Source: Pedobacter sp. L105 (lineage in GTDB: Bacteria > Bacteroidota > Bacteroidia > Sphingobacteriales > Sphingobacteriaceae). Taken from it: 64,000 nucleotides of DNA. A program made the position numbers and the translations under genes. The notes beneath the pieces are model-generated. The model searched no databases, was not told the DNA's origin, and saw nothing but the letters and a program-made list of their open reading frames with translations. The stretch covers positions 62,001 through 126,000 of the forward strand of contig NZ_LMUP01000003.1 of assembly GCF_009765875.1 (NCBI RefSeq), given 5' to 3'. Below are positions 15,530 to 31,074 of the stretch, piece after piece (position 1 is the stretch's first letter; each line of letters opens with the position of its first letter).

Positions 15530-15762
15530 TAGAATATATTTGTTTTTATGGTTATGAAGCTATCATAAGCAAGTGGAGGTTTCATAACAACTGGTTTGTT
15601 TTTTCTTATTAGTCGTCCCTGCAAAGGAATCCTTACAAAAAAATAAAACACTGTAAGATTTTTCAAATTATACAGCTGAATCACCAATAGATCTCTGGCT
15701 AACTGCGATCCTGAAAAAAAAGATCATCGATTAAATAGGGGATGTATTGGCACAACCATGAA
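15530..15762. other. Intergenic region, nothing clear
   Basis: AT-rich spacer upstream of the DUF1223 gene on the minus strand and downstream of a terminator. No gene, exact -7 promoter element or repeat was recognised. Confidence 0.4.
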
Positions 15763-15807
15763 TGAAAAAAGGACCAGGTAAGCATTATACCAGGTCCTTT
15801 GACTATT
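15763..15807 (-). terminator. Terminator of the small His-rich lipoprotein gene
   Basis: Thirteen-base arms at 15768-15780 (AAAGGACCAGGTA) and 15788-15800 (TACCAGGTCCTTT) with one A-A mismatch, followed on the minus strand by a U run. The plus strand also has a T run after the hairpin, so it could act in both directions. Confidence 0.75.
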
Positions 15808-15830
15808 TTTTTGCTGAATTGAATTACCTC

Positions 15831-15971
15831 TTAATGGTGGTAATCATCGTGCATTGGTCTTCCATCATGGTGATCACGATCATAACCATGATCGCGACGG
15901 TGCATAGCACAGCTGCTTATACTAAAACAAAAAGCAACTAAAACGGCGATTTTTAAGATATTCTTTTTCAT
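15831..15971 (-). CDS. Small His/Asp-rich lipoprotein
   Basis: Protein of 46 residues starting MKKNILKIAVLVAFCFSISS and followed by a lipobox cysteine (SISSC, C21). The mature part is only about 26 residues and is packed with His, Asp and Arg (MHRRDHGYDRDHH... ending DDYHH): seven histidines and six aspartates. It would be anchored in a membrane after lipidation. The composition suggests metal binding, but this is inference. It has its own terminator 30 bases downstream, which supports expression as a separate gene. No family is recognised. Confidence 0.7.
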   Translation of the reverse strand: MKKNILKIAVLVAFCFSISSCAMHRRDHGYDRDHHDGRPMHDDYHH

Positions 15972-16046
15972 AATTAGAGTATTAATAAGCTTGCCCTGTA
16001 TGACGAGAGCTTTATTGCTTAGATGTGGTTATACAACAAATACGCG

Positions 16047-16619
16047 TTATATTTTGTTTACACTTTTCTCATAAGGTTTGTCTTTTAGATTGGCGGCCAC
16101 ACGTTTAATAAATAAGTAATTTGCCGTGCCGCCAATAACGGCGCCTACTACCGGTACCAGCCTTTCTGCGGTTTTTGAACCCAGATTAAGCATTAGTTTT
16201 TCAGCTACTTCTTCCATCATATTTTTTGTCATGGCCATTCCCGCATCTACTTTTAGAGAGGCCGCCACTATTTTGAAGAAGTCTTCAAACTTGAGTTCAT
16301 AATTGCCGGTATAAAAATAAGAAACGGCCATGGTGACCCTAAACTGCTGGGTAATCAGGTTGATCATATCCACAGGCACTCCAATCAGCATGGTAGTGAT
16401 GCCTCCGGCACCAGTGATTACACCGGAGCCGGCAGCCATTAACGCACACTGATTGGTAAACTTGTCCAGGCCCATTTGGTCGACTCCCTTTTTTATACCT
16501 AACTGATCGATCTGGTTAAATATCTTTTGGAATCCACCCCTGGAAAGATGATTAAAGCTCTCTTTAAAATTGGTCCTGATTTTATTCAGGTTGATTTTAG
16601 GAAATGTTGGGATACGCAT
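16047..16619 (-). CDS. EcsC-like protein
   Basis: Protein of 190 residues with a glycine/alanine-rich amphipathic core: AAGSGVITGAGGITTMLIG near residue 67-85 and, near the C-terminus, VPVVGAVIGGTANYLF, the pattern seen in the EcsC family. EcsC-type proteins are often found with ABC transporters, but none is adjacent; function is unknown. It is divergent from the DUF4142 lipoprotein across 113 bases. The family call rests on the C-terminal motif and length and is moderate. Confidence 0.6.
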   Translation of the reverse strand: MRIPTFPKINLNKIRTNFKESFNHLSRGGFQKIFNQIDQLGIKKGVDQMGLDKFTNQCALMAAGSGVITGAGGITTMLIGVPVDMINLITQQFRVTMAVSYFYTGNYELKFEDFFKIVAASLKVDAGMAMTKNMMEEVAEKLMLNLGSKTAERLVPVVGAVIGGTANYLFIKRVAANLKDKPYEKSVNKI

Positions 16620-16732
16620 CTTTGTTTTTATAAGTTGTTTAATGTTAAGCTATTTCCATGCCATAGAATAAAGACCAACTTAAAACTATTAGGCCTCCCT
16701 GGTGTTATGAGTAAAACAAAACTAAAAAACCT

Positions 16733-17320
16733 ATGAAAAAGTTAATTTACGTGATCGCGATTGCTGCGACAACAGTTGCCTTCCAGGCATGTAATAATAG
16801 TCCAAAAGATGCTAAACAGACTGCGGACAGCTTAAACAAAACAAAAGACACTACATCAAATGCAGCTGCCACTGGTGGAATTGCTGTGGATAAAACTGAT
16901 GCCGACTTCTCTACAAAAGCCGCAGTAGGCGGTATGGCAGAAGTTGCGTTGGGGAAGTTAGCTGCTGAAAAATCTTCTAATGCACAAATCAAAATGTTTG
17001 GCAATATGATGGTAAAAGATCATGGAATGGTTAATGATGAACTGATGGCTATTGCCAAAACAAAAAACATTACCCTTCCTGCTACCGTAGATGATGAGCA
17101 TATGAGAAAAATGGATGATCTTAAAGCAAAAACAGGTGCTGATTTCGATAAAGCTTATGTTGATGCAATGATAGATGGCCATAAAAAAACGCTTACCCTA
17201 ATGCAGGACGAAGCCAAAAATGGTAAAGATGCAGACTTGAAAGCTTTTGCTGCTAAAACAGCACCGGCAGTTCAAATGCACCTGGATGCAATTAACAAAA
17301 TTCACGATAGCATGAAATAA
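16733..17320 (+). CDS. DUF4142 lipoprotein
   Basis: Lipoprotein of 195 residues with lipobox cysteine C20 (AFQACNN) and a short Lys/Thr/Asp linker. Residues 55-195 match DUF4142, a four-helix ferritin-like bundle: the helix with FGNMMVKDHGMVNDEL, then FDKAYVDAMIDGHKKTL, and a last helix with QMHLDAINKI. The conserved histidines (in MVKDH, DGHKK and MHLD) could bind metal. DUF4142 proteins in Bacteroidota are often stress-induced envelope proteins, role unproven. A strong terminator follows. Confidence 0.9.
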   Translation: MKKLIYVIAIAATTVAFQACNNSPKDAKQTADSLNKTKDTTSNAAATGGIAVDKTDADFSTKAAVGGMAEVALGKLAAEKSSNAQIKMFGNMMVKDHGMVNDELMAIAKTKNITLPATVDDEHMRKMDDLKAKTGADFDKAYVDAMIDGHKKTLTLMQDEAKNGKDADLKAFAAKTAPAVQMHLDAINKIHDSMK

Positions 17321-17345
17321 GTCATTTGCTCCTTATGGGAGTTAA

Positions 17346-17384
17346 AAAGGTCGCGGTTATGAACAATAGCCGTGGCCTTTTTTT
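17346..17384 (+). terminator. Terminator after the DUF4142 gene
   Basis: Fifteen-base stem (17346-17360 with 17366-17380) including three G-U pairs, five-base loop, followed by a T run. Confidence 0.85.
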
Positions 17385-17430
17385 ATTTATCTTCGTCCCT
17401 TAAACATCACCGTCAATTACTGCAGTATCA

Positions 17431-18120
17431 ATGAATATTTTAATTATTGAAGATGAGGAAAGGGTTCTTGCATTAATCAAGCGGAGCCTCGAAGAAAAAG
17501 GATACACTGTTACAGCAGCATTTGATGGTTATACAGGAGAGCGGCTCGCTATCAGCAATACTTATGATTTGATTATTTCTGATATTATTTTACCTCAGGT
17601 AAATGGATTGGAGCTCTGTAAATCAATTAGAAAATTAAAACCAGAAGTGCCTATTATATTGCTTACGGCTCTGGGTACCACCGATGATAAACTGGAAGGA
17701 TTTGACGCAGGCGCGGACGATTACCTGGTTAAACCCTTTGATTTGAGGGAACTCCATGCCAGGATCACAGCCCTGCTGAAGAGGAATGGCACAAAACAGG
17801 CTGAATTGCCAACTGTACTCAAATGTGAGGATCTGGAGCTGAACCTTAAAACTAAAATCATTACACGCGGAGGAAAAGATATCAGGCTAACACCAAAAGA
17901 ATTAAAACTGCTTGAATTTATGATGCAGAACCCAAACAGGATTTTGGGTCGCAATGAGATCGCTGAAAAGGTATGGGATACTTACTTTGATACGGGGACT
18001 AATTTTATTGACGTCTATATCAATTACCTCCGTAAAAAGATTGATAAAGATTTTGCCGTTAAGCTGATTCATACCCAACCTGGCTTAGGATTTATTTTTA
18101 GAGCAGCTCATGAAAATTAA
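17431..18120 (+). CDS. OmpR-family response regulator
   Basis: Two-component regulator of 229 residues. The receiver domain (1-120) has the acidic pair E7/D8, phosphorylation site D51, T79 and K101 (LVKPFD). The winged-helix Trans_reg_C domain spans about 130-225 with RLTPKELKLLEFMMQNPNRI. It overlaps the histidine kinase gene by 11 bases, so they form an operon. TATCTTCG at 17389-17396 is a possible -7 element. The linked desaturase gene suggests a membrane-lipid or envelope response, which is inference. Confidence 0.93.
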   Translation: MNILIIEDEERVLALIKRSLEEKGYTVTAAFDGYTGERLAISNTYDLIISDIILPQVNGLELCKSIRKLKPEVPIILLTALGTTDDKLEGFDAGADDYLVKPFDLRELHARITALLKRNGTKQAELPTVLKCEDLELNLKTKIITRGGKDIRLTPKELKLLEFMMQNPNRILGRNEIAEKVWDTYFDTGTNFIDVYINYLRKKIDKDFAVKLIHTQPGLGFIFRAAHEN

Positions 18121-19477
18121 AAACCGCCTCACGTTAATCTTTACCATTTGTATCGCCTGCCTGCTGCTCATCTTTGCCCTGGTGATCTATACTTCATTCT
18201 CTAAAAACCGGGAAGACGAATATTTTAAAAGATTAAAACAGCTCGCCACTACAAAAGCCAACCTTTTACTGGACGCCAAAATTAATCCGCAGGTATTACA
18301 GCTGATCTATAAAAGCTCTTCCAGTTCAATTTTCCCGGAAGAAGTAGCTATCTATGATACTGGTTTTCATTTGTTATACCATGATGCGGTAAAGATCGAT
18401 AAAGTAAAGGAAACACCCCAAATGATACATGATATCATCAGGGATAAGGAAATAGAATTTTATCAGAATGAATTACAGGTAGTAGGGTTTCTGTATCCTC
18501 ATCAGGGAAAATTGTATGTGATCACTGCGGCCGCTACTGACGTTTATGGGTTAAAGAATTTTGCAGGACTGAAGTATACTTTACTGGCAGGTTTTTTAAT
18601 TACTATTTTCCTGGTGTTTTTTACAGGCCGTTTCCTTTCCCAGCAGGCCTTAAAACCAGTGTCAGACCTGGTAGATCATGTGGAAGAAATAACAGCGAAG
18701 AATCTGGACCTACGGGTAAATGAAGGAAATGGTAAAGATGAAATTGCCGAGCTGGCCATTACCTTTAACCGGATGCTGGACCGTCTTGAAAATTCTTTTG
18801 ATGGCCAGAAGCAATTTGTATCCAGTATTTCCCATGAACTAAGAACACCTCTGGCTACGATGCTTGGGGAATTAGAGCTGGTATTACAAAAAGAACGGTC
18901 GCCAAAAGAATATCAGGATTCTATTCAGCATGCAATGGAGGATGGGCAGAAACTGACAAAGTTATGCAACAGTCTGCTGGATTTTGCCAAAGCCAGTTAT
19001 GACCCTGCCGAAATTAGCTTTAAGGAAGTGCGACTGGATGAAATTTTAATGGAGGCCAGAAGCCAGGTGTTGGATAGTTATCCCGGATATAAGCTCAATA
19101 TATTTTTTGAGAAGGATATTGAAGATGATGATTATATTTCCATCCTTGGTAATGAATATCTGCTTAGGGTAGCTTTTGTAAATCTGATGGAAAATGGCTG
19201 TAAGTTTTCTGAGAATAAGGAGTGTCAGATTGCCATAACTTACCATGCAAACCAGGCTATTATTCGTTTTCAGGACCATGGAGTTGGCATTAATGAAGAA
19301 GAAATCCCTAATATTTTTAACCCTTTTTACCGTGGGGGGAATAAAAAATTTGCTTCCGGTAACGGAATTGGTCTTTCTCTAACAAAAAAAATAATCGACC
19401 TGCATAAAGGTATAATCGGGGTTGTTTCTAATAAAAACGATGGTTCTGTCTTTACCGCAGAGTTTCCACATGTGTAA
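18110..19477 (+). CDS. Sensor histidine kinase
   Basis: Membrane kinase of 455 residues. Helix 1 lies at about 8-29 and helix 2 at 156-176, enclosing a periplasmic sensor of about 125 residues with no recognised ligand domain. HAMP spans about 178-230. The HisKA box FVSSISHELRTPLATM places the phosphorylated histidine at H242. The ATPase domain has N-box FVNLMENGCKFS, GVGI and GNGIGLSL. It is translationally coupled to the response regulator. The desaturase gene starts about 100 bases later on the same strand. Confidence 0.93.
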   Translation: MKIKNRLTLIFTICIACLLLIFALVIYTSFSKNREDEYFKRLKQLATTKANLLLDAKINPQVLQLIYKSSSSSIFPEEVAIYDTGFHLLYHDAVKIDKVKETPQMIHDIIRDKEIEFYQNELQVVGFLYPHQGKLYVITAAATDVYGLKNFAGLKYTLLAGFLITIFLVFFTGRFLSQQALKPVSDLVDHVEEITAKNLDLRVNEGNGKDEIAELAITFNRMLDRLENSFDGQKQFVSSISHELRTPLATMLGELELVLQKERSPKEYQDSIQHAMEDGQKLTKLCNSLLDFAKASYDPAEISFKEVRLDEILMEARSQVLDSYPGYKLNIFFEKDIEDDDYISILGNEYLLRVAFVNLMENGCKFSENKECQIAITYHANQAIIRFQDHGVGINEEEIPNIFNPFYRGGNKKFASGNGIGLSLTKKIIDLHKGIIGVVSNKNDGSVFTAEFPHV

Positions 19478-19500
19478 TTTTTTAATGAAAATTTAATCTG

Positions 19501-19533
19501 TTCGTGAAATGGACAGTATAAATTCTATCTTTA
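19501..19533 (+). promoter_or_regulatory. Candidate promoter of the desaturase
   Basis: TTCG (19501-19504), 21 bases, TATCTTTA (19526-19533), one mismatch to TAnnTTTG. If used, transcription would start near 19540, which rules out the ATG at 19509 and supports the start at 19575. Confidence 0.45.
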
Positions 19534-19574
19534 CCGCGCATTTAACAAATTATAATTCTGTAAGTTGTACACCT

Positions 19575-20585
19575 ATGACAAAAAGAACAAGCTTTACCTG
19601 GTCAGACGAACGTGAACCTCACAAATTACGTACAAAGACCATTATCAAAGAACATCCTGGTATCCGGGCGCTAATTGGGCTAAATCCGTTTACTTTCCTA
19701 ATCATCCTCTTCTGTGTAGGCCTGCAGGTAGTGCTGGCATGGTTTCTAAAAGATCAATCCTGGTGGTGGAATGTAATTGCTGCCTATTGTATAGGTGCAT
19801 TTGCATGTCATACATTATACGTTTGTATTCACGAATGTTCGCATAACCTGGTGTTTAAGAACAAAAACATGAATGTGATCAGCAGTATGATTGCTAATCT
19901 TCCATTGATTTTTCCTAGTGCCGTTTCTTTTGCTAAATACCATATGAAACATCATTCGTACCAGGGTGTAGAAGAACTGGATGCGGATATGCCTTTTCGC
20001 TGGGAAGCTAAACTAATTGATAATTCAACGATTGGTAAAAGTATCTGGTTATTGTTTTATCCGATATTTCAAATGCTGCGTCCCATCCGTTTAAAAGAAA
20101 TTAAGTTATTTGATGCCTGGACTGTGGCCAACCTGATTGTTCAGATCATTTTTACAGCAGCTATTGTTTATTTCTTTGGCGTAAAAGCAGTGGTATTTTT
20201 GATTTTAAGCTTTTTCTTTTCTGTGGGTTTACATCCGCTTGGAGCAAGATGGGTACAGGAACACTTTTTAACCCATGGAGACCATCAGGAAACCAAAAGT
20301 TATTATGGCAGCATGAACATTCTGAACTTAAACGTAGGTTACCACAATGAACATCATGATTTTCCATCTATACCCTGGAATAAGTTACCTCAGTTAAAAA
20401 AACTAGCTGATAACCATTATGAGAATTTAGGTTATCATACTTCTTATACCAAATTATTGTTCCAGTTTTTATTTAACAGGGAGATTTCGGTGTATTCCCG
20501 TACAGCCCGCTCCAACAGAGGGGGGAAGACTGTGGAAGTTAAACCCGTACCTGTTCAAAATTATGCAGATACGCCTGTGATCTAA
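19575..20585 (+). CDS. Membrane fatty-acid desaturase, DES1 (dihydroceramide delta-4 desaturase)-like
   Basis: Integral membrane di-iron desaturase of 336 residues. Three histidine boxes are HECSH (86-90), HMKHH (123-127) and HNEHH (257-261). Beyond the generic boxes it shares the lineage-specific stretches of animal DEGS1 as I remember it: ANLPL.. before box 2, GLHPLGARWVQEH, YYGSMNILNLNVGYHNEHHDFPSIPW (quoted in part) and a C-terminal SVYSR. Eukaryotic DES1 puts the 4,5-trans double bond into dihydroceramide. Sphingobacteriaceae make dihydrosphingolipids, so a lipid substrate of this type is plausible but unproven. The start was moved from 19509 to 19575: the family N-terminus aligns and a promoter lies between. 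It follows a two-component system and ends at a strong terminator. Confidence 0.85.
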   Translation: MTKRTSFTWSDEREPHKLRTKTIIKEHPGIRALIGLNPFTFLIILFCVGLQVVLAWFLKDQSWWWNVIAAYCIGAFACHTLYVCIHECSHNLVFKNKNMNVISSMIANLPLIFPSAVSFAKYHMKHHSYQGVEELDADMPFRWEAKLIDNSTIGKSIWLLFYPIFQMLRPIRLKEIKLFDAWTVANLIVQIIFTAAIVYFFGVKAVVFLILSFFFSVGLHPLGARWVQEHFLTHGDHQETKSYYGSMNILNLNVGYHNEHHDFPSIPWNKLPQLKKLADNHYENLGYHTSYTKLLFQFLFNREISVYSRTARSNRGGKTVEVKPVPVQNYADTPVI

Positions 20586-20605
20586 AGTAGGAACAGAATA
20601 TATAA

Positions 20606-20640
20606 AAAGGGCACGGCTTCATCAGCTGTGCCCTTTTTTT
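20606..20640 (+). terminator. Terminator after the desaturase gene
   Basis: Thirteen-base arms AAAGGGCACGGCT (20606-20618) and AGCTGTGCCCTTT (20624-20636), one G-U pair, five-base loop and a seven-base or longer T run. Confidence 0.9.
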
Positions 20641-20703
20641 GTTCTAATTATTTTCTAATAAAATTCTAATTGACCTCTAAGAGGAAAGCTACGCTGCTAT
20701 CTC

Positions 20704-20711
20704 TACTTTTG
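20704..20711 (+). promoter_or_regulatory. -7 promoter element of the mgtA operon
   Basis: TACTTTTG, an exact TAnnTTTG match, followed by the GC-rich initiation-type sequence CCGCACC. It leaves a 5' leader of roughly 110 bases before the ATG at 20828, long enough for a control element, but no known riboswitch was recognised in it. Confidence 0.5.
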
Positions 20712-20827
20712 CCGCACCTTAAAAAAAGAAAAATGGATTCTGGCCCCAGTTATTATTACCTCGTAAAAATTTTTTAAATCTGTACAGGATCGCTGCTGCG
20801 TTTTCTGTAAGGAATAACGTTGTTAGC

Positions 20828-23524
20828 ATGAAAGTACAAAACAAAAAAATATTACCTTTTTCAAAAAATGCTGATAATGGCTTTGATCCGCAGGTAATCG
20901 CAAAACTTCGCGAAGTCGCCAGCCAGGACCTCCCTCAATTTCTTGAAGAATTAGACTCTGCTGAAGAGGGCCTTACAGAACTTCAGGTAAGTACAAAAAG
21001 AAAACATTTCGGGATCAATGAAGTGCAGCATGAAAAAGCACCGGCTTGGTATTTACAGTTGCTGTCGGCTTTTTTGAACCCTTTTATTGGTGTATTGATT
21101 ATTCTGGCGGTCATATCCTTAATCATGGATGTACTGCTGGCTGCTCCTGCAGATCGTGACTATAAAACAGTGATCGTGGTAGGAGTAATGGTCCTGCTGA
21201 GCTCTTTGCTCCGTTTCTGGCAGGAATATACCAGTAACCAGGCAGCAAAACAGCTCAAAAGTATGGTTAAAACTACGGCTGCTGTACTTCGGGATGGTTT
21301 AACCAGGCAGGAAATAGAAATCACGGCACTGGTTCCGGGAGATGTTGTTTATTTGAGTGCAGGTGATATGATCCCGGCAGACTGCCGCATGATGCAGTCG
21401 AAGGATCTTTTTGTAAGCCAGGCGATGTTAACAGGCGAATCGCTTCCTGTAGAGAAACGGTGCAGCCCTATTCCTGATGCAACACTAAAATCACCGCTGG
21501 AATTGGAAAATATCTGTTTCATGGGTACCAATGTAGTCAGTGGAACAGCAGTTGCCGCAGTAGTTTTTACAGGCAACCAAACCTATTTCGGCTCTCTTGG
21601 AAAAGCGTTGACAGGTAAACGTGCAGAAACTAGTTTTGATAAAGGAATTAATAAAGTGAGCTGGCTGCTGATCAGGTTTATGCTGGTGATGGTGCCCTTG
21701 GTATTTTTGATCAATGGATTGACAAAAGGCGACTGGATGCAGGCCCTGCTGTTTGGAATTTCTATTGCTGTAGGTTTAACCCCCGAAATGCTGCCGATGA
21801 TTGTTACTGCAAACCTGGCAAAAGGGGCGCGCAGTATGAGTAAGTTTAAGGTGATTGTTAAACGCCTTAACGCTATTCAGAATATTGGGGCAATGGATAT
21901 CCTTTGCACCGATAAAACCGGAACATTGACTATGGATAAAATTATCCTGGAGAAACACCTTAATGTGTCTGGTGATCATGATGATGAAGTATTAAAATGG
22001 GCCTATCTTAATAGCTACCATCAAACGGGCTTAAAAAACCTGCTGGATGTAGCCGTATTACAACATATAGAATTGCACGATTACCTGAAGGTAGAGGAAG
22101 ATTTTAAAAAGATCGACGAGATACCTTTTGATTTTAACCGGCGCAGAATGAGTGTGGTGCTGGAACAAAAAAATGGCAGTCATTTGCTGATCTGTAAAGG
22201 TGCTGTTGAAGAAATGCTGGAGCTTTGCAGTCACTCTTTTGATCCCGGAGAAAATCATCAGCTTCATGTAGAGCAGGATAAAGTGGTTCCCATGGATGCA
22301 AGGATGCGGAAAACCGTGTTGAATACTTCAAAAAAACTGAATGAAGAGGGGCTGCGTGTATTGTTGGTAGCCATTAAAGAATATAAGGAACAACCGTTAA
22401 ATTATTCTGTTAACGATGAAAGCAGAATGATCCTCACAGGCTTCATTGGTTTTCTTGATCCCGCCAAGCCTTCTGCAAAACCTGCTATAGAGAGCCTGCA
22501 AAGATTGGGCATCAGTATTAAGGTACTTACCGGCGACAATGAAATTGTAACCAAGAAAATATGCAGGGATGTAGGTATTCCTATCAACCATGTGATTTTG
22601 GGAAGCGACCTGGAGAAAATGTCAGATGAGGAATTATTAAAGGATATTGATCAGATCAGCATTATGGCTAAACTTAGCCCTATTCAGAAATCCAGAGTGG
22701 TTAAGTTATTGCAAGCTAAAGGCCATACCGTTGGTTTTATGGGTGATGGTATTAATGATGCTGCGGCCCTGAGAGATGCCGATGTGGGTATTTCTGTAGA
22801 TACTGCAGTAGATATCGCTAAAGAAAATGCAGATATTATTTTGCTGGAGAAAGACCTGATGGTGTTACGTAAAGGTGTAATCTATGGCAGAAGAACCTTT
22901 GGTAATATTATCAAGTATATCAAGATGACTGCAAGCAGTAATTTCGGCAATATGTTCAGCGTACTGGGCGCAAGTATTTTTCTGCCCTTCCTGCCTATGC
23001 TGCCTATTCACCTGCTGGTTCAAAATCTGTTATATGATGTATCACAAATTGCTATTCCCTGGGATAGTATGGATAAGGAATTTATTGAAAAACCGCAAAA
23101 ATGGGATGCCAATGGTATCAGCCGTTTTATGATCTTCATTGGTCCCATCAGCTCTATTTTTGACTATGCAACTTTTGCGGTATTGTACTTTGTGTTTAAA
23201 GCCAATACCACTGCTCACCAAACGCTATTTCAGTCTGGCTGGTTTATTGAAGGTTTATTGTCCCAGACCTTAATCGTTCACATGATCCGTACCAGAAAGA
23301 TTCCCTTTATCCAAAGCTGGGCTACAAAACCAGTTGTCGCATTGACAAGTTTGATCATGGTGATTGGAATTTACATTCCGTTTTCACCCATTGCCCATGC
23401 CCTAAAGCTAGAGTCACTTCCGCTAAGTTATTTTCCCTGGTTGCTGGGCATATTGTTAAGCTATTGCCTGCTTACACAATTGATCAAAACATGGTTTATT
23501 AAAAAATTTAACGACTGGCTTTAA
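20828..23524 (+). CDS. mgtA: Magnesium-transporting P-type ATPase
   Basis: P3B-type ATPase of 898 residues that imports Mg2+ across the inner membrane using ATP. The phosphorylated aspartate is D362 in CTDKTGTLTMDK, the actuator motif is MLTGESLPVEK, and the hinge motif is MGDGINDAAALRDADVGIS. The Mg-type intramembrane signatures VGLTPEMLPMIVTANLAKGA and, in the sixth helix, SSNFGNMFSVLGAS are typical of MgtA/MgtB and not of other cation pumps. Length matches E. coli MgtA (898). It heads an apparent operon with a CDF transporter (27 bases downstream) and a DUF1275 protein. Confidence 0.93.
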   Translation: MKVQNKKILPFSKNADNGFDPQVIAKLREVASQDLPQFLEELDSAEEGLTELQVSTKRKHFGINEVQHEKAPAWYLQLLSAFLNPFIGVLIILAVISLIMDVLLAAPADRDYKTVIVVGVMVLLSSLLRFWQEYTSNQAAKQLKSMVKTTAAVLRDGLTRQEIEITALVPGDVVYLSAGDMIPADCRMMQSKDLFVSQAMLTGESLPVEKRCSPIPDATLKSPLELENICFMGTNVVSGTAVAAVVFTGNQTYFGSLGKALTGKRAETSFDKGINKVSWLLIRFMLVMVPLVFLINGLTKGDWMQALLFGISIAVGLTPEMLPMIVTANLAKGARSMSKFKVIVKRLNAIQNIGAMDILCTDKTGTLTMDKIILEKHLNVSGDHDDEVLKWAYLNSYHQTGLKNLLDVAVLQHIELHDYLKVEEDFKKIDEIPFDFNRRRMSVVLEQKNGSHLLICKGAVEEMLELCSHSFDPGENHQLHVEQDKVVPMDARMRKTVLNTSKKLNEEGLRVLLVAIKEYKEQPLNYSVNDESRMILTGFIGFLDPAKPSAKPAIESLQRLGISIKVLTGDNEIVTKKICRDVGIPINHVILGSDLEKMSDEELLKDIDQISIMAKLSPIQKSRVVKLLQAKGHTVGFMGDGINDAAALRDADVGISVDTAVDIAKENADIILLEKDLMVLRKGVIYGRRTFGNIIKYIKMTASSNFGNMFSVLGASIFLPFLPMLPIHLLVQNLLYDVSQIAIPWDSMDKEFIEKPQKWDANGISRFMIFIGPISSIFDYATFAVLYFVFKANTTAHQTLFQSGWFIEGLLSQTLIVHMIRTRKIPFIQSWATKPVVALTSLIMVIGIYIPFSPIAHALKLESLPLSYFPWLLGILLSYCLLTQLIKTWFIKKFNDWL

Positions 23525-23551
23525 TATTTATATATTCATAACTCAATTCAA

Positions 23552-24940
23552 ATGGTTCAAAGTAAACAAACGATCACCACGATTTCAGTGGTTTCCAGCG
23601 CTGGTCTCTCGGCGTTGAAATTCGTCGTAGGAATAGCAACCGGCAGCTTAGGCCTGATTGCCGAAGGTGCACACTCTCTTCTTGATTTGTTATCCACACT
23701 TATCACTTTCATTGTAGTGCGTGTTTCCTCGCTTCCACCAGATGAAAATCATCCTTATGGTCATGAAAGGGCAGAATCCCTAGGTGCATTGGGAGGGATG
23801 ATCCTGTTGGCTGTTACTGCCATCTGGATCTTATACCAGTCGATCGTTAAAATTGTATGGCATCCGGAGAAACCCGAAATCACTGTCTGGTCTTTTGCGA
23901 TTATTATTATCAGTCTTCTGGTTGATTTATGGCGGGTGAGAAGCCTGAAAAAGGCAGCTGCTCATTATAAGAGTGCTTCCCTGGAATCGGACGCAGAGCA
24001 TTTTGGAAACGACCTGTTAGGGTCTATGGCTGTTTTAACAGGTCTTTTTGTAATTTTTCTTTCCAGATATATCAATTTACCGGTATGGCTGGTAGACCGT
24101 ATAGATGCTATAGCAGCATTAGGAGTCGCTTTTGCAGCGATGAAGTCTTTCTGGAACATCGGTTCACAGGCCATCAAATCGTTAATGGACAATGTTCCTG
24201 AAGATCTGATCCCAAGATTAAATGCGCTGATTGAACAGGAAGCAGGGGTAATCCCTAATACGGTGGTCACTAAAATCAGGTATGTAGGTAATTTGCCCCA
24301 TGTGGAAGTGGTGATAGGCATCAACAGGGAGCTGAATTTTGAAAAAGCACATCAGCTGACCGAGAAAATTGAACATTCAATTTCAAAGGATCTGGGCAGT
24401 GATGCACAGGTGATTGTACATGCAGAACCAACAGCAGCTTCTAATGAACCTTATTCAGTTACGGTAAGGGCTATTGCCGACAGGCTGGGATTGCGTATCC
24501 ATAACCTGCATGTTTATCTGGTAGATGAAAAAGTATGTCTGGAACTGGATATGGAGATTTCCAGTCATTTACATCTGTCAGAAGCCCACCGTTCTTCAGA
24601 GCGGCTGGAAAAAGCATTGATTGCCGAATTTAAAGCCCCTGTAACCGTCAATGTACATCTGGAACCTTTAAATGAAAAGGCGCAAAAGGCTACTCAGAAT
24701 GAACAACTGACCGCTGAAGTGCAGCAGATCATTCATTCTATCAACGACCAGATTATCCTGGATAACGTTTTGACAGTTAAAGAAGGACTTGTTTTAACGA
24801 TTAAGCTTCCCTTAGAAGATTCTTCACCATTAATAGAGGCTCACGCTATAATGTCAAATCTGGAGCGTAAAATCCGGTCAAAAATCGATAATATTGTAAA
24901 AGTTCATGTAGATCCTGAGCCAATATCTAAAAAAAGTTAA
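23552..24940 (+). CDS. Cation diffusion facilitator (zinc-type) with three C-terminal domain copies
   Basis: Metal/proton antiporter of 462 residues, well above the usual 300. Six helices occupy residues 10-215. The transport-site residues are H41 and D45 in helix 2 (HSLLD) and H150 and D154 in helix 5 (HFGND). An HD-HD site is typical of zinc-selective members, while DD-HD members also accept Fe or Cd. After the membrane part, three ferredoxin-like cytoplasmic domains appear in tandem, each ending in a similar strand: VIVHAEPT, VNVHLEPL and VKVHVDPEP. Most CDF proteins have one such domain. The gene is in the mgtA operon, 27 bases after it. Confidence 0.88.
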   Translation: MVQSKQTITTISVVSSAGLSALKFVVGIATGSLGLIAEGAHSLLDLLSTLITFIVVRVSSLPPDENHPYGHERAESLGALGGMILLAVTAIWILYQSIVKIVWHPEKPEITVWSFAIIIISLLVDLWRVRSLKKAAAHYKSASLESDAEHFGNDLLGSMAVLTGLFVIFLSRYINLPVWLVDRIDAIAALGVAFAAMKSFWNIGSQAIKSLMDNVPEDLIPRLNALIEQEAGVIPNTVVTKIRYVGNLPHVEVVIGINRELNFEKAHQLTEKIEHSISKDLGSDAQVIVHAEPTAASNEPYSVTVRAIADRLGLRIHNLHVYLVDEKVCLELDMEISSHLHLSEAHRSSERLEKALIAEFKAPVTVNVHLEPLNEKAQKATQNEQLTAEVQQIIHSINDQIILDNVLTVKEGLVLTIKLPLEDSSPLIEAHAIMSNLERKIRSKIDNIVKVHVDPEPISKKS

Positions 24941-24979
24941 GGGTAAAGGATTAAGTTTATATACTGTTAAATAGAGTTT

Positions 24980-25726
24980 ATGCTGAGAAACACTAAAGAA
25001 GCCCGATCCTTAAAGGAAAACCTGATGTTAGCCTCTTCAACAGCGTTTGTTGCGGGAATTATCAATGTTGCAGGCCTGATTGCTTTTTTTGCCTTTTCTT
25101 CTAATATTACAGGGCATGTGGCAAATCTGGCTAAGAATATTGTGGATTTTGATCTGAGTGATGTGATTTCGCTTTCTTTATGGCTGCTGGCTTTTTTTTC
25201 GGGTGCTTTTGTTTCCAGTTATATTATCAGGTCTTACAATTATAGAAGTCAATACAGGGCACATTCTTTACCTATAGTAATAGAGACCGTCGTTCTATTT
25301 ATGGTTGCGCTTTATGGTAACCACATTTACAAAGGATCACAACAGGAAAGTGAAGTGATCATAGGTTTTATCCTGTTTTCTATGGGACTGCAAAATGGAA
25401 TGGTGAGTATCATATCCGGTGGACTGGTAAAGTCTTCTCATTTAACCGGATTAATCACTGATATGGGGGCCGAAGCAGCAGAGTATATTCATCCGAAATC
25501 TAACCAGCCGGCTGTGGTAAAGAATAAACTTTATGTCAGGGTTACCATTCTGTCTTTTTATATCCTGGGAGGATTGGTAGGCGCTTACTTTTTCTACTTG
25601 TTCAAGTTTAAGGTTTTTTATGTAGCACCTGCTGTTTTGCTTACCATTTTAGCATACGATTTACTACCCTTATTTTCTCATCGAATAGCTTCTTTTTTTA
25701 AGCCGGCAGCGCATAAGGGTAAATAG
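24980..25726 (+). CDS. DUF1275 (YoaK-like) membrane protein
   Basis: Inner-membrane protein of 248 residues with six predicted helices. Family stretches are AFVAGIINVAGLIAF (residues 21-35), SSNITGHVANLAKNI (41-55), GLQNGMVSIISGG near 139-151 and a SSHLTGLITDMG motif. DUF1275 proteins are widespread and uncharacterised. It is the last gene of the mgtA-CDF run and is followed by a strong terminator, so it may work with the ion transporters, although that is only positional inference. Confidence 0.88.
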   Translation: MLRNTKEARSLKENLMLASSTAFVAGIINVAGLIAFFAFSSNITGHVANLAKNIVDFDLSDVISLSLWLLAFFSGAFVSSYIIRSYNYRSQYRAHSLPIVIETVVLFMVALYGNHIYKGSQQESEVIIGFILFSMGLQNGMVSIISGGLVKSSHLTGLITDMGAEAAEYIHPKSNQPAVVKNKLYVRVTILSFYILGGLVGAYFFYLFKFKVFYVAPAVLLTILAYDLLPLFSHRIASFFKPAAHKGK

Positions 25727-25753
25727 AAAATCTCCTTACAATTTCAACTTCTC

Positions 25754-25791
25754 AAAAAGCGTTATGTTTTCGTAAACATAACGCTTTTTTT
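25754..25791 (+). terminator. Terminator after the mgtA-CDF-DUF1275 operon
   Basis: Perfect 16-base stem (25754-25769 with 25774-25789), four-base loop, ending in a T run. The sequence is nearly symmetric and could also act on the minus strand. Confidence 0.9.
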
Positions 25792-25991
25792 CAAATGTAT
25801 TTGTCTGTGGGGTTTATTTGTGAAAATAATATTTGTAATTAAACATATAAATAATTAATGGGTAATTATTTGTAATAAGGGTTATTAATTAAATGGATTG
25901 ATTCTATACTGGTAATTTTTCCAAGATCTGTAGTCTGAAACTGGAATAATTCTGCGAAATTAGGGATAATCAGTTTTTAATTTATACCATT

Positions 25992-26615
25992 ATGGATAAC
26001 AAATCCCAGAAAGAGAACCCCTCAGGAAGCTCCCGTCGTGATTTCCTGAAAAAATCCTCTGCGATAACTGCCATAGCTTTGACTCCGGCTATCGCTGTAA
26101 AAGCCTCTGATCTGAAGTTGGATGAGAAGCTCTCTGAAGCGATGGAGCAAATGCCATTGAACATTGAGATCAATGGAGAAATGCATCACCTTAAGGTTGA
26201 ACCTCGTTTAACTTTACTCGATTTATTAAGAGAGCGGCTTAAGCTGACCGGAACAAAAAAAGGATGCGACCAGGGACAATGCGGTGCCTGCACTGTACAT
26301 GTAGATGGTGTCAGAACAAATTCATGTTTATCACTGGCCATTATGAACGATGGTGCAAAAATAACTACTATAGAAGGCCTTGCTAAGGGTAATGAACTGC
26401 ATCCAATGCAGGAAGCATTTATCAAACACGATGGTTTCCAATGCGGTTATTGTACTTCAGGTCAGATCATGTCGGCCATAGCCTGTATCCATGAAGGTCA
26501 TGCCGATTCAGAGACAAATATCAGGGAGTTCATGAGTGGAAATATCTGCCGCTGCGGTGCTTACGCAAATATTGTGAATGCTATACAGGAAGTTAAAGCA
26601 GGAGGAAAAGTATGA
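25992..26615 (+). CDS. paoA: Aldehyde oxidoreductase 2Fe-2S subunit, PaoA-like
   Basis: Iron-sulfur subunit of 207 residues in a periplasmic molybdenum aldehyde oxidoreductase. It starts with a Tat signal (SSRRDFLKK, residues 13-21), which exports the folded heterotrimer. The plant-type [2Fe-2S] motif is GCDQGQCGAC... with the fourth cysteine in TNSC. The second [2Fe-2S] helical domain is QCGYCTSGQIM and ICRCGAY. It passes electrons from the molybdenum site to FAD. It overlaps the next gene by four bases and heads the three-gene operon. A leader of about 200 AT-rich bases precedes it. Confidence 0.93.
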   Translation: MDNKSQKENPSGSSRRDFLKKSSAITAIALTPAIAVKASDLKLDEKLSEAMEQMPLNIEINGEMHHLKVEPRLTLLDLLRERLKLTGTKKGCDQGQCGACTVHVDGVRTNSCLSLAIMNDGAKITTIEGLAKGNELHPMQEAFIKHDGFQCGYCTSGQIMSAIACIHEGHADSETNIREFMSGNICRCGAYANIVNAIQEVKAGGKV

Positions 26616-27598
26616 ACAATTTTCAATATACCAGGGTCAGCAGCCCTGCAGCCGCTATCGCAGAATTGTCAAAAGACCCAACTGCAAAGTTAGTGGCAGG
26701 TGGAACAAACCTGATTGACCTGATGAAATATGGGGTAATGGCCCCTGATAAGTTGGTCGATATCAATCATCTTGGTTTCAATGAAATAAAGAAAGACAAC
26801 GGAACATTACATATTGGCGCTACGGTGAGAAACGCAGTGGCTTCAGGCAATGCCGATGTACTGAAATATCAGCCGCTATTGTCACAGGCAATGCTCTCCG
26901 GAGCTTCTCCCCAGCTTAGGAATAAAGCAACTATGGGCGGTAATTTATTACAGCGCACACGCTGCGGTTATTTTTATGACATTTCTGCTCCCTGTAACAA
27001 AAGAGAACCCGGATCGGGATGCAGTGCTATAGAAGGATATAATCGTATGCACGCAATATTCGGCGCCAGTGATACCTGTATTGCTGTAAATCCCAGTGAT
27101 ATGAATGTAGCCTTGGTTGCCCTGGATGCCATTATCATGGTAGCAGGACCTAAGGGGAACAGGAAGATACCTATGGCTGATTTCCATCGTTTGCCAGGTA
27201 CACATCCTGAACTGGATACCACACTAGATAAGAAAGAAATTATTACCGGCATTGTTATTCCGGATAATCATCTGGCAGCGCATAGTACTTATTTAAAAGT
27301 GCGCGACCGTGCCTCTTATGCTTTTGCTTTGATTTCTGTGGCAGCAACGATGGATCTAGAAGGCTCAACGATCAAAGATGTACGGCTTGCAATGGGTGGT
27401 GTGGCACATAAGCCATGGCGCTTAACAGCGGCAGAGGAGTTTTTGAAGGGAAAAACGGCTTCTTTAGAGAATTTTAATCAGGCTGCAGAAATAGCTATGA
27501 AGGGCGCTAAAGCATATGAATTCAACGCTTTTAAATTAAAGTTGGCACCCAATACAATGGTTCAGGCGTTGAAAACAGCATCAGGCATTAAAGCATAG
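26612..27598 (+). CDS. paoB: Aldehyde oxidoreductase FAD/4Fe-4S subunit, PaoB-like
   Basis: FAD-binding subunit of 328 residues (CO-dehydrogenase flavoprotein family). FAD-binding stretch KLVAGGTNLIDLMK lies near residue 25-38 and ATMGGNLLQRTRC near 108-120. The insertion RTRCGYFYDISAPCNKREPG followed by SGCSAIEGYNR has the extra cysteines that hold a [4Fe-4S] cluster in E. coli PaoB and are absent from ordinary xanthine dehydrogenases. It has no signal of its own and would be exported as a hitchhiker with PaoA. The 3' end is three bases before paoC. Confidence 0.92.
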   Translation: MNNFQYTRVSSPAAAIAELSKDPTAKLVAGGTNLIDLMKYGVMAPDKLVDINHLGFNEIKKDNGTLHIGATVRNAVASGNADVLKYQPLLSQAMLSGASPQLRNKATMGGNLLQRTRCGYFYDISAPCNKREPGSGCSAIEGYNRMHAIFGASDTCIAVNPSDMNVALVALDAIIMVAGPKGNRKIPMADFHRLPGTHPELDTTLDKKEIITGIVIPDNHLAAHSTYLKVRDRASYAFALISVAATMDLEGSTIKDVRLAMGGVAHKPWRLTAAEEFLKGKTASLENFNQAAEIAMKGAKAYEFNAFKLKLAPNTMVQALKTASGIKA

Positions 27599-27601
27599 GT
27601 T

Positions 27602-29815
27602 ATGAGCAAAAAACATTTAGAAAATGCGGATATGGAATTGGCCCTATCCCGCGTAGACGGAAGAGTAAAAGTAACCGGTGCAGCAAAATATACAGCAGAG
27701 GTACAATTGCCGGAACTTACTTATGGCGTTCTGGTAGAAAGTACCATAGGGCAGGGGATGATTACCGCATTGGATACTAAAAAAGCAGAGCGTGCCCCTG
27801 GTGTGATGGCTGTCATTTCACACCTTAACACCCCTGGAGTACCAGAGTATAAGCTACAAAATCAGGATGTTATTCAAAAGCAATTGCGTGTTTTTGATAG
27901 TGAAAATATATATTTTAATGGTCAGCCTATTGCAGTAGTAGTAGCTGACACATTGGAGAGGGCACAGTATGGAGCCTCGCTGGTTAAAGTTGTTTATGCT
28001 AAGGGTAAGTCGGCAACCAGCCTGGAAAATAATCTGTCCAGGGCAGTAATGCCTAAAAAAACCAAGGAAGATTATATGCGCGGAAAGGCGGCGGCTTTTA
28101 AAGATGCCGAGTTTCAGGTAGAGGAGGAGTATACGTTACCTTCCGAGGCCCATCATCCTATGGAACCTCACTCTATTATTGCCTGGTGGGAAGCAGCCGA
28201 TAAGCTAACACTGGTGGATAAAACCCAGGGTTCACAAAATACAGCGGCTATCATGGCGAAATCTTTTCAGCTTTCCCCGCAAAATGTAAAGGTCATTTCC
28301 ACTTATGTGGGAGGTGCCTTTGGTTCTGCACTGCGGGTATGGCCACATGAAATTGTAGCTGTTCTTGCTGCTAAGAAAGTGCAAAAACCGGTAAAGCTGG
28401 TGCTGCACCGTAACCAGATGTCGTATATGGTAGGCTATCGTCCTCATACGTTGCAAAAAGTAGCTTTGGGTGCTTCTAAAGATGGTAAGCTGCTGGGTAT
28501 TTCTCATGAGTCTTATGGAAAAACTTCTATGTACGAAGAGTTTACAGAGAATGTTCTGGCCATGACACGCATGATGTATGACGTGCCTAATATTGATACG
28601 AAATATAGGATTGTTCCGCTAAATGTAAGCACACCGGCACCCATGCGCGGGCCGGGAGAGGCTACAGGGTCTTTTGCATTGGAATGTGCACTGGATGAAC
28701 TTTCCTACAAATTGAATATGGATCCTATCGAACTTCGGCTGGCGAATTATGCAGATCAGGACCCGGATAAAAAAATGCCATGGTCCAGTAAATACTTAAA
28801 GGAGTGTTATCAGCTGGGTGCAGAGAAGATTGGCTGGGACAAGCGTAAGGCACTCCCTGGTGCGGTTCAGGAAGGTGAATGGAAAGTAGGTTACGGTATA
28901 GCGACGGGTACTTTTGGTGCTTTCCGTGGCGGGGCTTCGATGAAAGCTACTTTTAAGCCTGATGGTACATTGCTTTTACAGTCGGCCATTGCTGATATTG
29001 GTCCTGGTACAGCAACCACCATGACCATTATTGCCTCGGAAAATCTGGGCATACCAGTAGAGAAGATCAGCTTCCAGCTTGGGAATTCTACTTTTCCGAA
29101 GGCTCCGCAGCAGGGCGGTTCGAATACTGTAGCTACAGTAGGATCTGCCGTTGTTGCTGTTTGTAATAATTTAAAGGTAGAGCTGGCGAAACGTGCCGCA
29201 AAGCAAAAAGCAGACTGGGGAAATGCAGTAGCGTCAACGATAAGGTTTAAGGGGGCAAACCTGGTAAATACTGATGAACCCTCTTCTAAAATTGAATTTG
29301 CCTCTTTATTTGGTGCTGAAAGTCCAAATGAGCTGGTAATTACAGCCGACGCTGCGCCGGGGGATGAAAAGAACAAGTATTCTTTTTATTCCTTTTCAGT
29401 ACATTTTATAGAGGCACATGTACATGAGTTAACAGGTGTAGTGAGAATTAAGAATGCTGTTTCTGTGATAGATTGCGGAACGGTGGTGAGTCCTAAAACT
29501 GCCCGCAGCCAGTCGATGGGAGGGATAGTTGGTGGTATAGGCATGGCATTGACGGAGGAGCTGGTACTTGATGATCGTAATGGCCGTACAGTAAATGCCA
29601 GTTTTGGTGATTACCATGTGCCTGTACAGGCCGATATTCCACAGATGCAAATGATGTTTGTGAACGAGAAAGATCCTTATCTGAATCCAATGGGTTCTAA
29701 GGGGTTGGGAGAGATTGTGATCATTGGCGTAGCGCCGGCAGTAGCGAATGCGGTATATAATGCAACAGGTAAACGGATTCGGAATCTTCCGATTACTCCG
29801 GATAAGTTGATATAA
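27602..29815 (+). CDS. paoC: Aldehyde oxidoreductase molybdenum subunit, PaoC-like
   Basis: Catalytic subunit of 737 residues that oxidises aldehydes to acids on a molybdopterin cofactor. The N-terminal a/b hammerhead lies at about 15-135. The cofactor-binding part has GGAFGSALRVWPHE (about 238-251), PMRGPGEATGSFALE and QQGGSNTV. The catalytic glutamate is in GSKGLGEIVI near residue 703. All three subunits are present and intact. The usual maturation chaperone (PaoD/XdhC-type) is not next to it and must be elsewhere. Expected role: detoxifying aldehydes in the periplasm. Confidence 0.92.
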   Translation: MSKKHLENADMELALSRVDGRVKVTGAAKYTAEVQLPELTYGVLVESTIGQGMITALDTKKAERAPGVMAVISHLNTPGVPEYKLQNQDVIQKQLRVFDSENIYFNGQPIAVVVADTLERAQYGASLVKVVYAKGKSATSLENNLSRAVMPKKTKEDYMRGKAAAFKDAEFQVEEEYTLPSEAHHPMEPHSIIAWWEAADKLTLVDKTQGSQNTAAIMAKSFQLSPQNVKVISTYVGGAFGSALRVWPHEIVAVLAAKKVQKPVKLVLHRNQMSYMVGYRPHTLQKVALGASKDGKLLGISHESYGKTSMYEEFTENVLAMTRMMYDVPNIDTKYRIVPLNVSTPAPMRGPGEATGSFALECALDELSYKLNMDPIELRLANYADQDPDKKMPWSSKYLKECYQLGAEKIGWDKRKALPGAVQEGEWKVGYGIATGTFGAFRGGASMKATFKPDGTLLLQSAIADIGPGTATTMTIIASENLGIPVEKISFQLGNSTFPKAPQQGGSNTVATVGSAVVAVCNNLKVELAKRAAKQKADWGNAVASTIRFKGANLVNTDEPSSKIEFASLFGAESPNELVITADAAPGDEKNKYSFYSFSVHFIEAHVHELTGVVRIKNAVSVIDCGTVVSPKTARSQSMGGIVGGIGMALTEELVLDDRNGRTVNASFGDYHVPVQADIPQMQMMFVNEKDPYLNPMGSKGLGEIVIIGVAPAVANAVYNATGKRIRNLPITPDKLI

Positions 29816-30153
29816 TAAACATTCAATTTCTTTAGCTCTCTGGTCTTGATCAGGGAGTTTTTTGTTGGGGGGATAATCGCTGGGTAAAAAAAATTGAATG
29901 CTAATCTCTTCCTCAATCCTTTGCTGAAGGGCAAAGTATTGCATGTCATCGATTAGCATTTAATTTTTTTTTACAGGATATCCTGGTGGATAGAGTTGAA
30001 GATATTCCATTAGATCATCTTATTGCAGGATTCATAACCGCTGATCATCATATTGGTTATGTTTTAACTATGGAGTTAGTTATATTTGGTTTAAGCAAGC
30101 TTACAAGTACATCGGTCTAAGTCAAATAGCCTTTTAACCAAAAACGTAATTGA
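29816..30153. other. Intergenic region with terminator and possible small frame
   Basis: Just after paoC, bases 29833-29862 hold a hairpin (CTCTCTGG with TCAGGGAG, two G-U pairs) followed by six T, a probable terminator. On the plus strand, 29986-30120 reads as a 44-residue frame from a GTG codon (VDRVEDIPLDHLIAGFI...), protein-like in composition but with no recognised family and no convincing start; it could be a remnant. Nothing else is seen. Confidence 0.35.
29833..29864 (+). terminator. Terminator of the paoABC operon
   Basis: Eight-base stem including two G-U pairs, six-base loop, followed by a T run, 18 bases after the paoC stop. Confidence 0.65.
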
Positions 30154-31074
30154 ATGAATAAAACTGTGTTTCTACTATTAATACTATTATCCATAGCATA
30201 CAATGGGTTCTCACAGACATTGAGATACTTTGAGACTATCCATAAAGCAGATTCTTTATTAAATAAGAAGAGTTATCTGGCAGCAGCCGAAGCTTATTCC
30301 AGTATCCTCGATCATTACACTGCCAAAATTATCGTTAATGATTACTATGATGCGGCTTGTGCTTATGCCCAGGCTAATAATCCGGGTAGAGCGTTCCATT
30401 ATTTAGACGTTATGGCCGAAAAAAAAGGATACGGAAATTCAGAAGGATTAATAAGGGATAATGATTTGGATAATCTTAAAAAGGCTCCTGAATGGAAACC
30501 ATTGATCAGCAAGGTCCAAAGGAATGCTGCAGAGGCAGAGAAACATTATAATTTAAAATTAAAGACAGAACTGGAGCAAATATTTGTCGACGATCAAAGA
30601 TACAGGTTGTTACTGGGTGGTGTTATAAAGAAGTTTGGCATAGATTCAAAGGAAGTTGAGGAGCTGGAGAATAAAATGGGTGAAGCAGACAGTCTTAACT
30701 TGAGGAAAGTAAGTGAAATACTTGATAAGTATGGATGGCTTGGAGCAAAAACTATAGGTGAAAAAGGAACCTTAACACTATTTATAGTGATTCAGCATGC
30801 CGATGATCATCCGGAACTTCAGGTTAAGTATGCGAAAATGTTTAAGAAAGCTATTCTGGCAGGTACGGTAGATAACACAGAAGAATATGCAATGTTAGAA
30901 GATAGAATTTCAATACACCAGCATAAATATCAAATTTATGGATCACAGTTAATAAGGAATAAAGAAGGTAAGTTTCTCCCGTTGCCAATCCAGGACAGTA
31001 TTTATGTTGATCAAAGAAGAATGAGTGAAGGACTACCTCCTTTAAAATATTATATTCAGCAGAGTAATCCATAA
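30154..31074 (+). CDS. Secreted TPR-like / DUF6624 protein
   Basis: Exported protein of 306 residues with a signal peptide at 1-20 (NGFSQ end). Residues 25-110 form a helical repeat region like TPR units (YLAAAEAYSSILDHY, YDAACAYAQANNPGRAFHYL). Residues 140-300 match DUF6624 as I recall it: DQRYRLLL, ILDKYGWLGAKTIGEKG, LFIVIQHADDHPELQ and a C-terminal QIYGSQL. DUF6624 proteins are common in Bacteroidota and have no known activity. It appears monocistronic. Confidence 0.75.
   Translation: MNKTVFLLLILLSIAYNGFSQTLRYFETIHKADSLLNKKSYLAAAEAYSSILDHYTAKIIVNDYYDAACAYAQANNPGRAFHYLDVMAEKKGYGNSEGLIRDNDLDNLKKAPEWKPLISKVQRNAAEAEKHYNLKLKTELEQIFVDDQRYRLLLGGVIKKFGIDSKEVEELENKMGEADSLNLRKVSEILDKYGWLGAKTIGEKGTLTLFIVIQHADDHPELQVKYAKMFKKAILAGTVDNTEEYAMLEDRISIHQHKYQIYGSQLIRNKEGKFLPLPIQDSIYVDQRRMSEGLPPLKYYIQQSNP

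Follow-up and report, generated by a model that had tools for sequence, protein, structure and literature searches.

Control of CDF transporters by their cytoplasmic tails has been worked out on proteins with one C-terminal domain (CTD) per chain, which is also the makeup of the solved CDFs matched by the protein described here. In YiiP, as presented in the portions of PMC10617992 and PMC10932157 cited here, site C holds a zinc pair at the CTD interface, and breaking this site splays the CTDs apart. The cited portion of PMC10617992 further reports that site C keeps the dimer intact, that zinc is bound at about 33 nM at pH 7, and that H234, H263 and D287 are site C residues; a DD-HD quartet is given for transport site A of YiiP in the cited part of PMC6440370. 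A metal-responsive regulatory CTD is described for MamM in the part of its literature covered here. Both MamM and MamB have one CTD, and the solved chain of CzcD/TM0876 from Thermotoga maritima (2zzt, 6vda) contains a single CTD.

The window, i.e. the whole stretch of 64,000 nucleotides of Pedobacter DNA that was analysed, encodes a CDF that departs from these systems, as three tandem CDF-type CTDs lie behind a six-helix transport domain in one chain. Table 1 lists the features. The protein resembles YiiP/FieF in its transport fold, in the positions of sites A and B, in its CTD fold and in most site C positions. It differs from YiiP in showing HD-HD instead of DD-HD at site A, and in having three CTDs instead of one, of which the second bears the site C signature. 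The family assignment is clear from PF01545 (147 bits, cut-off 26.6) and TIGR01297 (190.9 bits, cut-off 82.35), together with the alpha-beta-beta-alpha-beta fold of the cytoplasmic CTD, here in three copies. The scores stayed below the equivalog thresholds of FieF/YiiP (NF050169, 135 bits vs 420; NF007064, 124.9 vs 447), MamM (NF033615, 133.1 vs 350) and MamB (105.2 vs 350).

Table 1. Features at and around the three-CTD CDF gene, in positions of the window.
Feature	Position	Strand	Basis
Three-CTD CDF transporter gene, 462 aa	23552..24940	+	ORF, Pfam, NCBIfam
Six-helix transmembrane domain, residues 10-212	23579..24187	+	Pfam Cation_efflux, 7.6e-43
Transport site A, first half, H41 and D45	23672..23686	+	Alignment; H41 48/51, D45 51/51
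Site B loop D64-x-x-H67-x-x-x-H71, helices 2-3	23741..23764	+	Alignment; invariant 51/51
Transport site A, second half, H150 and D154	23999..24013	+	H150 49/51, D154 51/51
CTD1, residues 209-297	24176..24442	+	Profile, alignment, model, structure match
CTD2, residues 298-376	24443..24679	+	Profile, alignment, structure match
CTD3, residues 377-460	24680..24931	+	Profile, alignment, model
MgtA-type magnesium P-type ATPase, 898 aa	20828..23524	+	TIGR01524, 1298.7 bits, cut-off 610.75
DUF1275 membrane protein	24980..25726	+	PF06912, 7.4e-33
Terminator-like hairpin between desaturase gene and mgtA, 15 pairs and T run	20604..20638	+	Hairpin scan

A sequence-only reading had proposed that this is a CDF with three C-terminal ferredoxin-like domains, and profile searches, shuffles, self-alignment and AlphaFold agree in confirming it. 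The Pfam ZT_dimer model matched three stretches at E up to 1, two of them at E<=0.001; in the genome scan the corresponding values were 2.3e-8 for CTD1, 5.6e-9 for CTD2 and 4.0e-4 for CTD3, the last of these scoring under the Pfam curated cut-off. Because circularity was to be avoided, a CTD profile was built from 115 collected single-CTD CDFs of fewer than 345 residues, with the window protein left out. This profile matched residues 210-295 (3e-14), 315-375 (9e-10) and 383-459 (3e-7), with 52.4, 37.9 and 30.3 bits for CTD1, CTD2 and CTD3, against 10.3, 13.3 and 10.2 bits for the best of 1000 shuffles each.

Self-alignment of the three segments had been named as the test on which the proposal could fail. 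CTD1 aligned with CTD2 at a score of 61 and CTD2 with CTD3 at 68, and none of 2000 shuffles equalled either value. The pairwise alignment of CTD1 with CTD3 (score 37) was not significant, with 194 of 2000 shuffles as high, but profile-profile comparison with hhalign supported all pairs (E 2.9e-13 for CTD1-CTD2, 4.9e-16 for CTD1-CTD3 and 3.7e-17 for CTD2-CTD3). The structure prediction that had been asked for, run with an alignment of 34 rows, returned three alpha-beta-beta-alpha-beta units and six long helices inside residues 5-212 (mean pLDDT 91.5, pTM 0.67). A model of the CTD fragment alone (pLDDT 94.4, pTM 0.74) hints at a defined mutual arrangement of the three CTDs. Regarding the similar end strands noticed earlier, VHAEPT and VHLEPL correspond, but VHVDPEP lies two residues off register in the ungapped alignment, so that the in-register residue of CTD3 is D454 and not H452.

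Comparison with solved structures places the individual domains among known CDFs. The transport domain with CTD1 matched YiiP and human ZnT structures, Foldseek giving YiiP 8f6e (1.5e-15) and VIA giving ZnT7 8j7v (Z 22.7, 2.7 A over 266 residues). The structure matches listed cover CTD1 and CTD2 individually: CTD1 matched YiiP 3j1z (VIA Z 13.1, 1.6 A over 83 residues), and CTD2 matched the MamB CTD 6qfj (Z 12.4, 1.5 A over 79 residues) and the Thermotoga CzcD CTD 6vda (Z 12.0, 2.7 A over 81 residues). In fold, CTD1 is like the MamM CTD and CTD2 like the MamB CTD (VIA Z about 12), and the CzcD/TM0876 CTD, a weak match by sequence (E about 0.01), is like CTD2. The top Foldseek matches listed for the CTD model were ribosomal and secretion-ring proteins at TM of about 0.2-0.3; these were set aside as sharing a common unit.

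The site C residues of Shewanella YiiP were mapped onto each CTD with MAFFT, using H234, H263 and D287 as well as H250 and H285, which we take to be part of the same site. Four of these five positions are expressed by the signature H-x-H-H-[ED]. Counts were made on 36 non-redundant three-CTD proteins, 15 of the 51 having been dropped at the 85% cut; they hang on the MAFFT placement, were recounted with larger sets, and are not independent, since Chlorobi supply many of the 36 rows. The signature was found in CTD2 of 35 of the 36 proteins, with L154 as the single failure, and in CTD3 of 21, and CTD1 never carried it (0/36). The core without the first His was present in 13 of the 36 CTD1s, that of the window protein among them. 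At the position of YiiP H250, CTD2 shows Asp in 22 proteins, His in 11, Gln in 2 and Asn in 1. Judged by these alignments, the best-kept candidate for a regulatory metal site is CTD2, not CTD1.

In the window protein, the five positions read VVHHE in CTD1, HDHHE in CTD2 and DKHDE in CTD3. The site in CTD2 consists of H317, D333 (His in YiiP), H346, H369 and E371, and both H317 and H369 are invariant in all 51 three-CTD proteins. CTD1 has no His at the H234 position; as H267, H290 and E292 remain, and likewise in 13 of the 36 CTD1s, it may still bind metal. In CTD3 the site is altered, H431 and E456 being kept (His in 48 of 51 and Glu in 49 of 51 proteins at these positions), with D454 at the H285 position and H452 two residues upstream. 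Among single-CTD relatives nested in the transporter clade described below, 17 of 18 carry the full signature in their sole CTD, the exception being L044 (PVHHA). Over the 115 single-CTD profile proteins it occurs in 47 (all 17 nested ones and 30 of the 98 others), and the core without the first His occurs in 108. Therefore, the first His is no universal mark.

The earlier suggestion, that dimerisation or metal sensing could be altered by the added domains, is reasonable, and the conservation of a putative site C in CTD2 sharpens it. The reading that we lean towards is a dimeric, YiiP-like antiporter exporting Zn2+, perhaps Cd2+, for H+, with its metal clamp in the added CTD2. By analogy with YiiP, Zn2+ (and perhaps also Cd2+) would leave the cytoplasm in exchange for protons. 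The protein would form a dimer, with the CTDs running on away from the membrane. With its site C incomplete, CTD1 would serve mainly as a structural adaptor. Because CTD2 retains the signature and CTD1 lacks it, CTD2 could be the clamp that, when loaded with metal, holds the two chains together and adjusts transport to the metal in the cytosol. CTD3 may act as a further clamp or brace, its metal site being kept in some lineages and altered in the window protein. How the CTDs would stack and pair between chains is something we infer. A bolder version, which we regard as rather doubtful, sees the three-CTD CDFs as graded sensors, in which the main clamp would have moved from CTD1 to CTD2 and CTD3 would be a second, tunable clamp; the response to zinc would then be stepwise or cooperative, with the number and affinity of clamps set by lineage.

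The same domains could also pair within one chain. CTD2 and CTD3 would then form an intramolecular pseudo-dimer with metal at the internal interface, only CTD1 would pair with the partner chain, and the extra domains would make up a separate sensor in each subunit. CTDs are indeed dimerisation domains, the hhalign comparison finds CTD2 and CTD3 closest to each other, 21 of the 36 proteins have the signature in both, and the pTM of the CTD-only model fits such an arrangement. However, CTD3 of the window protein reads DKHDE; leaving an Asp/Glu swap aside, three of its five site C residues are unlike those of YiiP, so that an internal site would be lopsided in this protein. Moreover, total absence of the signature from CTD1 is odd for the sole clamp between chains. 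We consider an internal pseudo-dimer rather unlikely.

The three-CTD plan turned out to mark a wide subfamily, and the idea that the triple domain is an oddity of one protein had to be abandoned. Of 60 collected CDFs of at least 345 residues, 51 have three CTDs, two have two and seven have one, and three CTDs were found in every one of the 51 proteins of at least 450 residues, the window protein included. For the three-CTD CDF subfamily, as we name it here, the defining traits are three CTDs and the signature in CTD2, and the window protein shows both. The family sample (151 genomes) gave a full-length match in the window's own genome only; in the genus, 5 of 145 genomes carry a three-CTD CDF, the other four being 58-73% identical, and the order sample (300 genomes) contained 4 genomes with such a protein, all of the window's genus.

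Within the phylum, 106 of 395 genomes gave a match at E<=1e-30. About 79 of these (own included) reach residue 448 or beyond, eight end at 380-411 with open frames of at least 459 aa, one is split over two contigs, and 18 cover the transport domain and CTD1 only. As many as 65 of the 79 full-length matches come from one family (f18), taken as Chlorobi because the FMO antenna protein (PF02327), which we take to be a Chlorobi marker within the Bacteroidota phylum, was found in 5 of 5 of its genomes tested and in 0 of 9 others and 0 of 14 controls. Overall, the matches listed comprise Bacteroidota (mostly Chlorobi), Acidobacteriota, Chloroflexota, an actinobacterial bin and Alphaproteobacteria, the latter with Asticcacaulis and two Azospirillum plasmids (L186, L187); several relatives are metagenome bins, with taxonomy as labelled. 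A one-off fusion was rejected, given the plan's presence in about 79 phylum matches and several other phyla.

Concerning descent, a transport-domain tree of 81 rows united 33 of the 34 three-CTD rows and 18 nested single-CTD rows in one clade with support 98. The nested position of the single-CTD rows fits lineages in which the two outer CTDs were lost. In a tree of single domains (149 rows, only 91 columns), CTD1, CTD2 and CTD3 clustered by position with 6 changes against a minimum of 3, and because of this grouping, largely by position, one old triplication older than the spread of the plan seems likely. A three-CTD CDF from an Anaerolineales genome (L043:7917-9344) fell on a long branch outside the clade, with its transport domain among single-CTD proteins, and may represent a second origin or a domain exchange. 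AU tests, on groups picked after the tree was seen, rejected all 34 three-CTD rows as one clade (p 3.3e-45), and rejected weakly the 33 rows without L043 (p 0.031) and the 34 rows plus the nested single-CTD rows (p 0.029). Two two-CTD CDFs, from a deltaproteobacterium (L063:7968-9137) and a SAR324 bin (L065:7965-9140), are like the window protein in having an extra CTD after CTD1 and unlike it in having two CTDs. Their transport domains group with single-CTD proteins elsewhere, so they probably had a separate origin. The number of CTDs in CDFs can consequently change, as one, two and three copies were found.

The breadth of the subfamily also bears on whether the added domains do anything with metal. 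They could serve for the docking of partner proteins, or be duplicates in decay with no role in metal sensing, and CTD3 does diverge fastest among the genus orthologues (40-46% identity, compared to 51-75% in CTD2 and 69-86% in the transport domain), with its site C altered in several lineages. Per-domain selection values were unusable in this comparison, since dS was saturated. On the other hand, three CTDs persist in all the collected proteins of at least 450 residues over several phyla, and positions 317 and 369 of CTD2 are invariant and 431 and 456 of CTD3 nearly so. We regard docking or decay as quite improbable. No site residue checked differs between the window protein and its four orthologues in the genus, and all five carry the third motif, H-[VI]-D-P-E-P.

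Public records already contain proteins of the three-CTD plan, named simply as CDFs. Among the open-access papers listed by the literature searches, no title or abstract beginning describes a CDF with more than one CTD; an earlier mention of multi-CTD CDFs in print is possible. The new point is the location of the putative regulatory metal signature, in CTD2. In a three-CTD family, the membrane-proximal dimer contact and the metal-dependent clamp, which YiiP combines, could be taken apart, so that each role could be mutated on its own.

The transport domain was then considered for the choice of metal. Paired metal residues of CDFs in helices 2 and 5 are present as H41, D45, H150 and D154, and D64, H67 and H71 of site B align with D70, H73 and H77 of Shewanella YiiP. 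The HD-HD site that the sequence-only reading had pointed out is thus there, and zinc, which it had derived from it, is a fair guess; export of zinc (or cadmium) appears likely from this motif. HD-HD was found in 47 of the 51 three-CTD proteins, the departures being L037 (DD-ND), L039 (HD-ND), and L153 and L154 (both ED-HD). The L037 protein (L037:2712-4148), from a Chloroflexales bin, is at 41% identity the closest relative outside the genus among the matches listed, and its quartet hints at a different metal in an otherwise similar protein. According to the cited part of PMC5703985, the clades in which zinc has been tested best have the HD-HD quartet, but HD-HD is also found in an iron-linked CDF clade, and A-site composition does not correlate well with specificity. 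Because of this poor correlation, HD-HD leaves the metal unsettled.

Another divalent ion, i.e. Fe2+, Mn2+, Co2+ or Mg2+, would fit the neighbouring mgtA gene, which had been read as sharing an operon with the CDF. Co-orientation and spacing stand, as mgtA, the CDF gene and the DUF1275 gene lie on the same strand with gaps of 27 bp and 39 bp. The terminator-like hairpin upstream of mgtA is possibly the upstream edge of this three-gene unit; the scan found 7 such sites against 6.0 expected by shuffling and is indicative only. A further hairpin within the CDF frame (24011-24044, +; 13 pairs, loop 8, TTTTT) may be due to chance, given that the total was not above the shuffles. The adjacency, however, is not kept in congeners. 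The mgtA orthologues of nine congeners (74-77% identical) had no CDF and no DUF1275 gene within the stretches fetched, and the four genus CDF orthologues had neither mgtA nor DUF1275 within theirs, some congener stretches being short on one side (L200 and L214, contig end). MgtA as a functional partner is thus not supported as a kept trait, with 0 of 4 genus CDF orthologues adjoining mgtA.

Wider neighbourhoods were compared at 30 loci. No gene cluster recurred in more than 6 of the 30, and 33 non-CDF clusters were found in at least three; some recurring clusters are antisense frames, and a partner gene could be missed, as the CDF itself escaped ORF picking at three of the 30 loci (L158, L186, L187). 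Two scans annotated 18 neighbour proteins, and a third scan annotated 10. Three kinds of neighbour occur in more than one lineage, namely a VTT-domain protein (4 loci), an RsmB-like methyltransferase (5 loci) and a Na/Ca-exchanger (PF01699). In L149 and L039, the CDF is preceded by EamA-type and TauE-type membrane proteins. The Na/Ca-exchanger directly follows the three-CTD CDF on the opposite strand at L155:8793-9821, and its cluster recurs beside the CDF in L156 and L157; in a fourth locus, L186, one lies some kilobases away. On the two Azospirillum plasmids (L186:8001-10122, L187:8001-10143), the CDF gene follows two ABC-transporter genes and overlaps a downstream MgtC/SapB-family gene.

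Altogether, a transporter for another ion would draw on the mgtA neighbour with its short gap, on the iron-linked HD-HD clade of PMC5703985, on the MgtC/SapB overlap in the Azospirillum plasmids and on the Na/Ca-exchanger genes that adjoin the CDF in three Chlorobi loci. Against it stand the absence of mgtA and DUF1275 beside all four genus orthologues within the stretches fetched, and the HD-HD quartet of those clades that, in the cited part of the same paper, have the best tests for zinc. In addition, no Rfam family was matched at 15000-31000; control by a known metal riboswitch there was thus rejected. We hold another ion to be unlikely. Further downstream in the window, at 25992-29815, three adjacent frames look by eye like a molybdenum hydroxylase, with a putative 2Fe-2S subunit that has a twin-arginine-like start, a putative FAD subunit and a putative large subunit.
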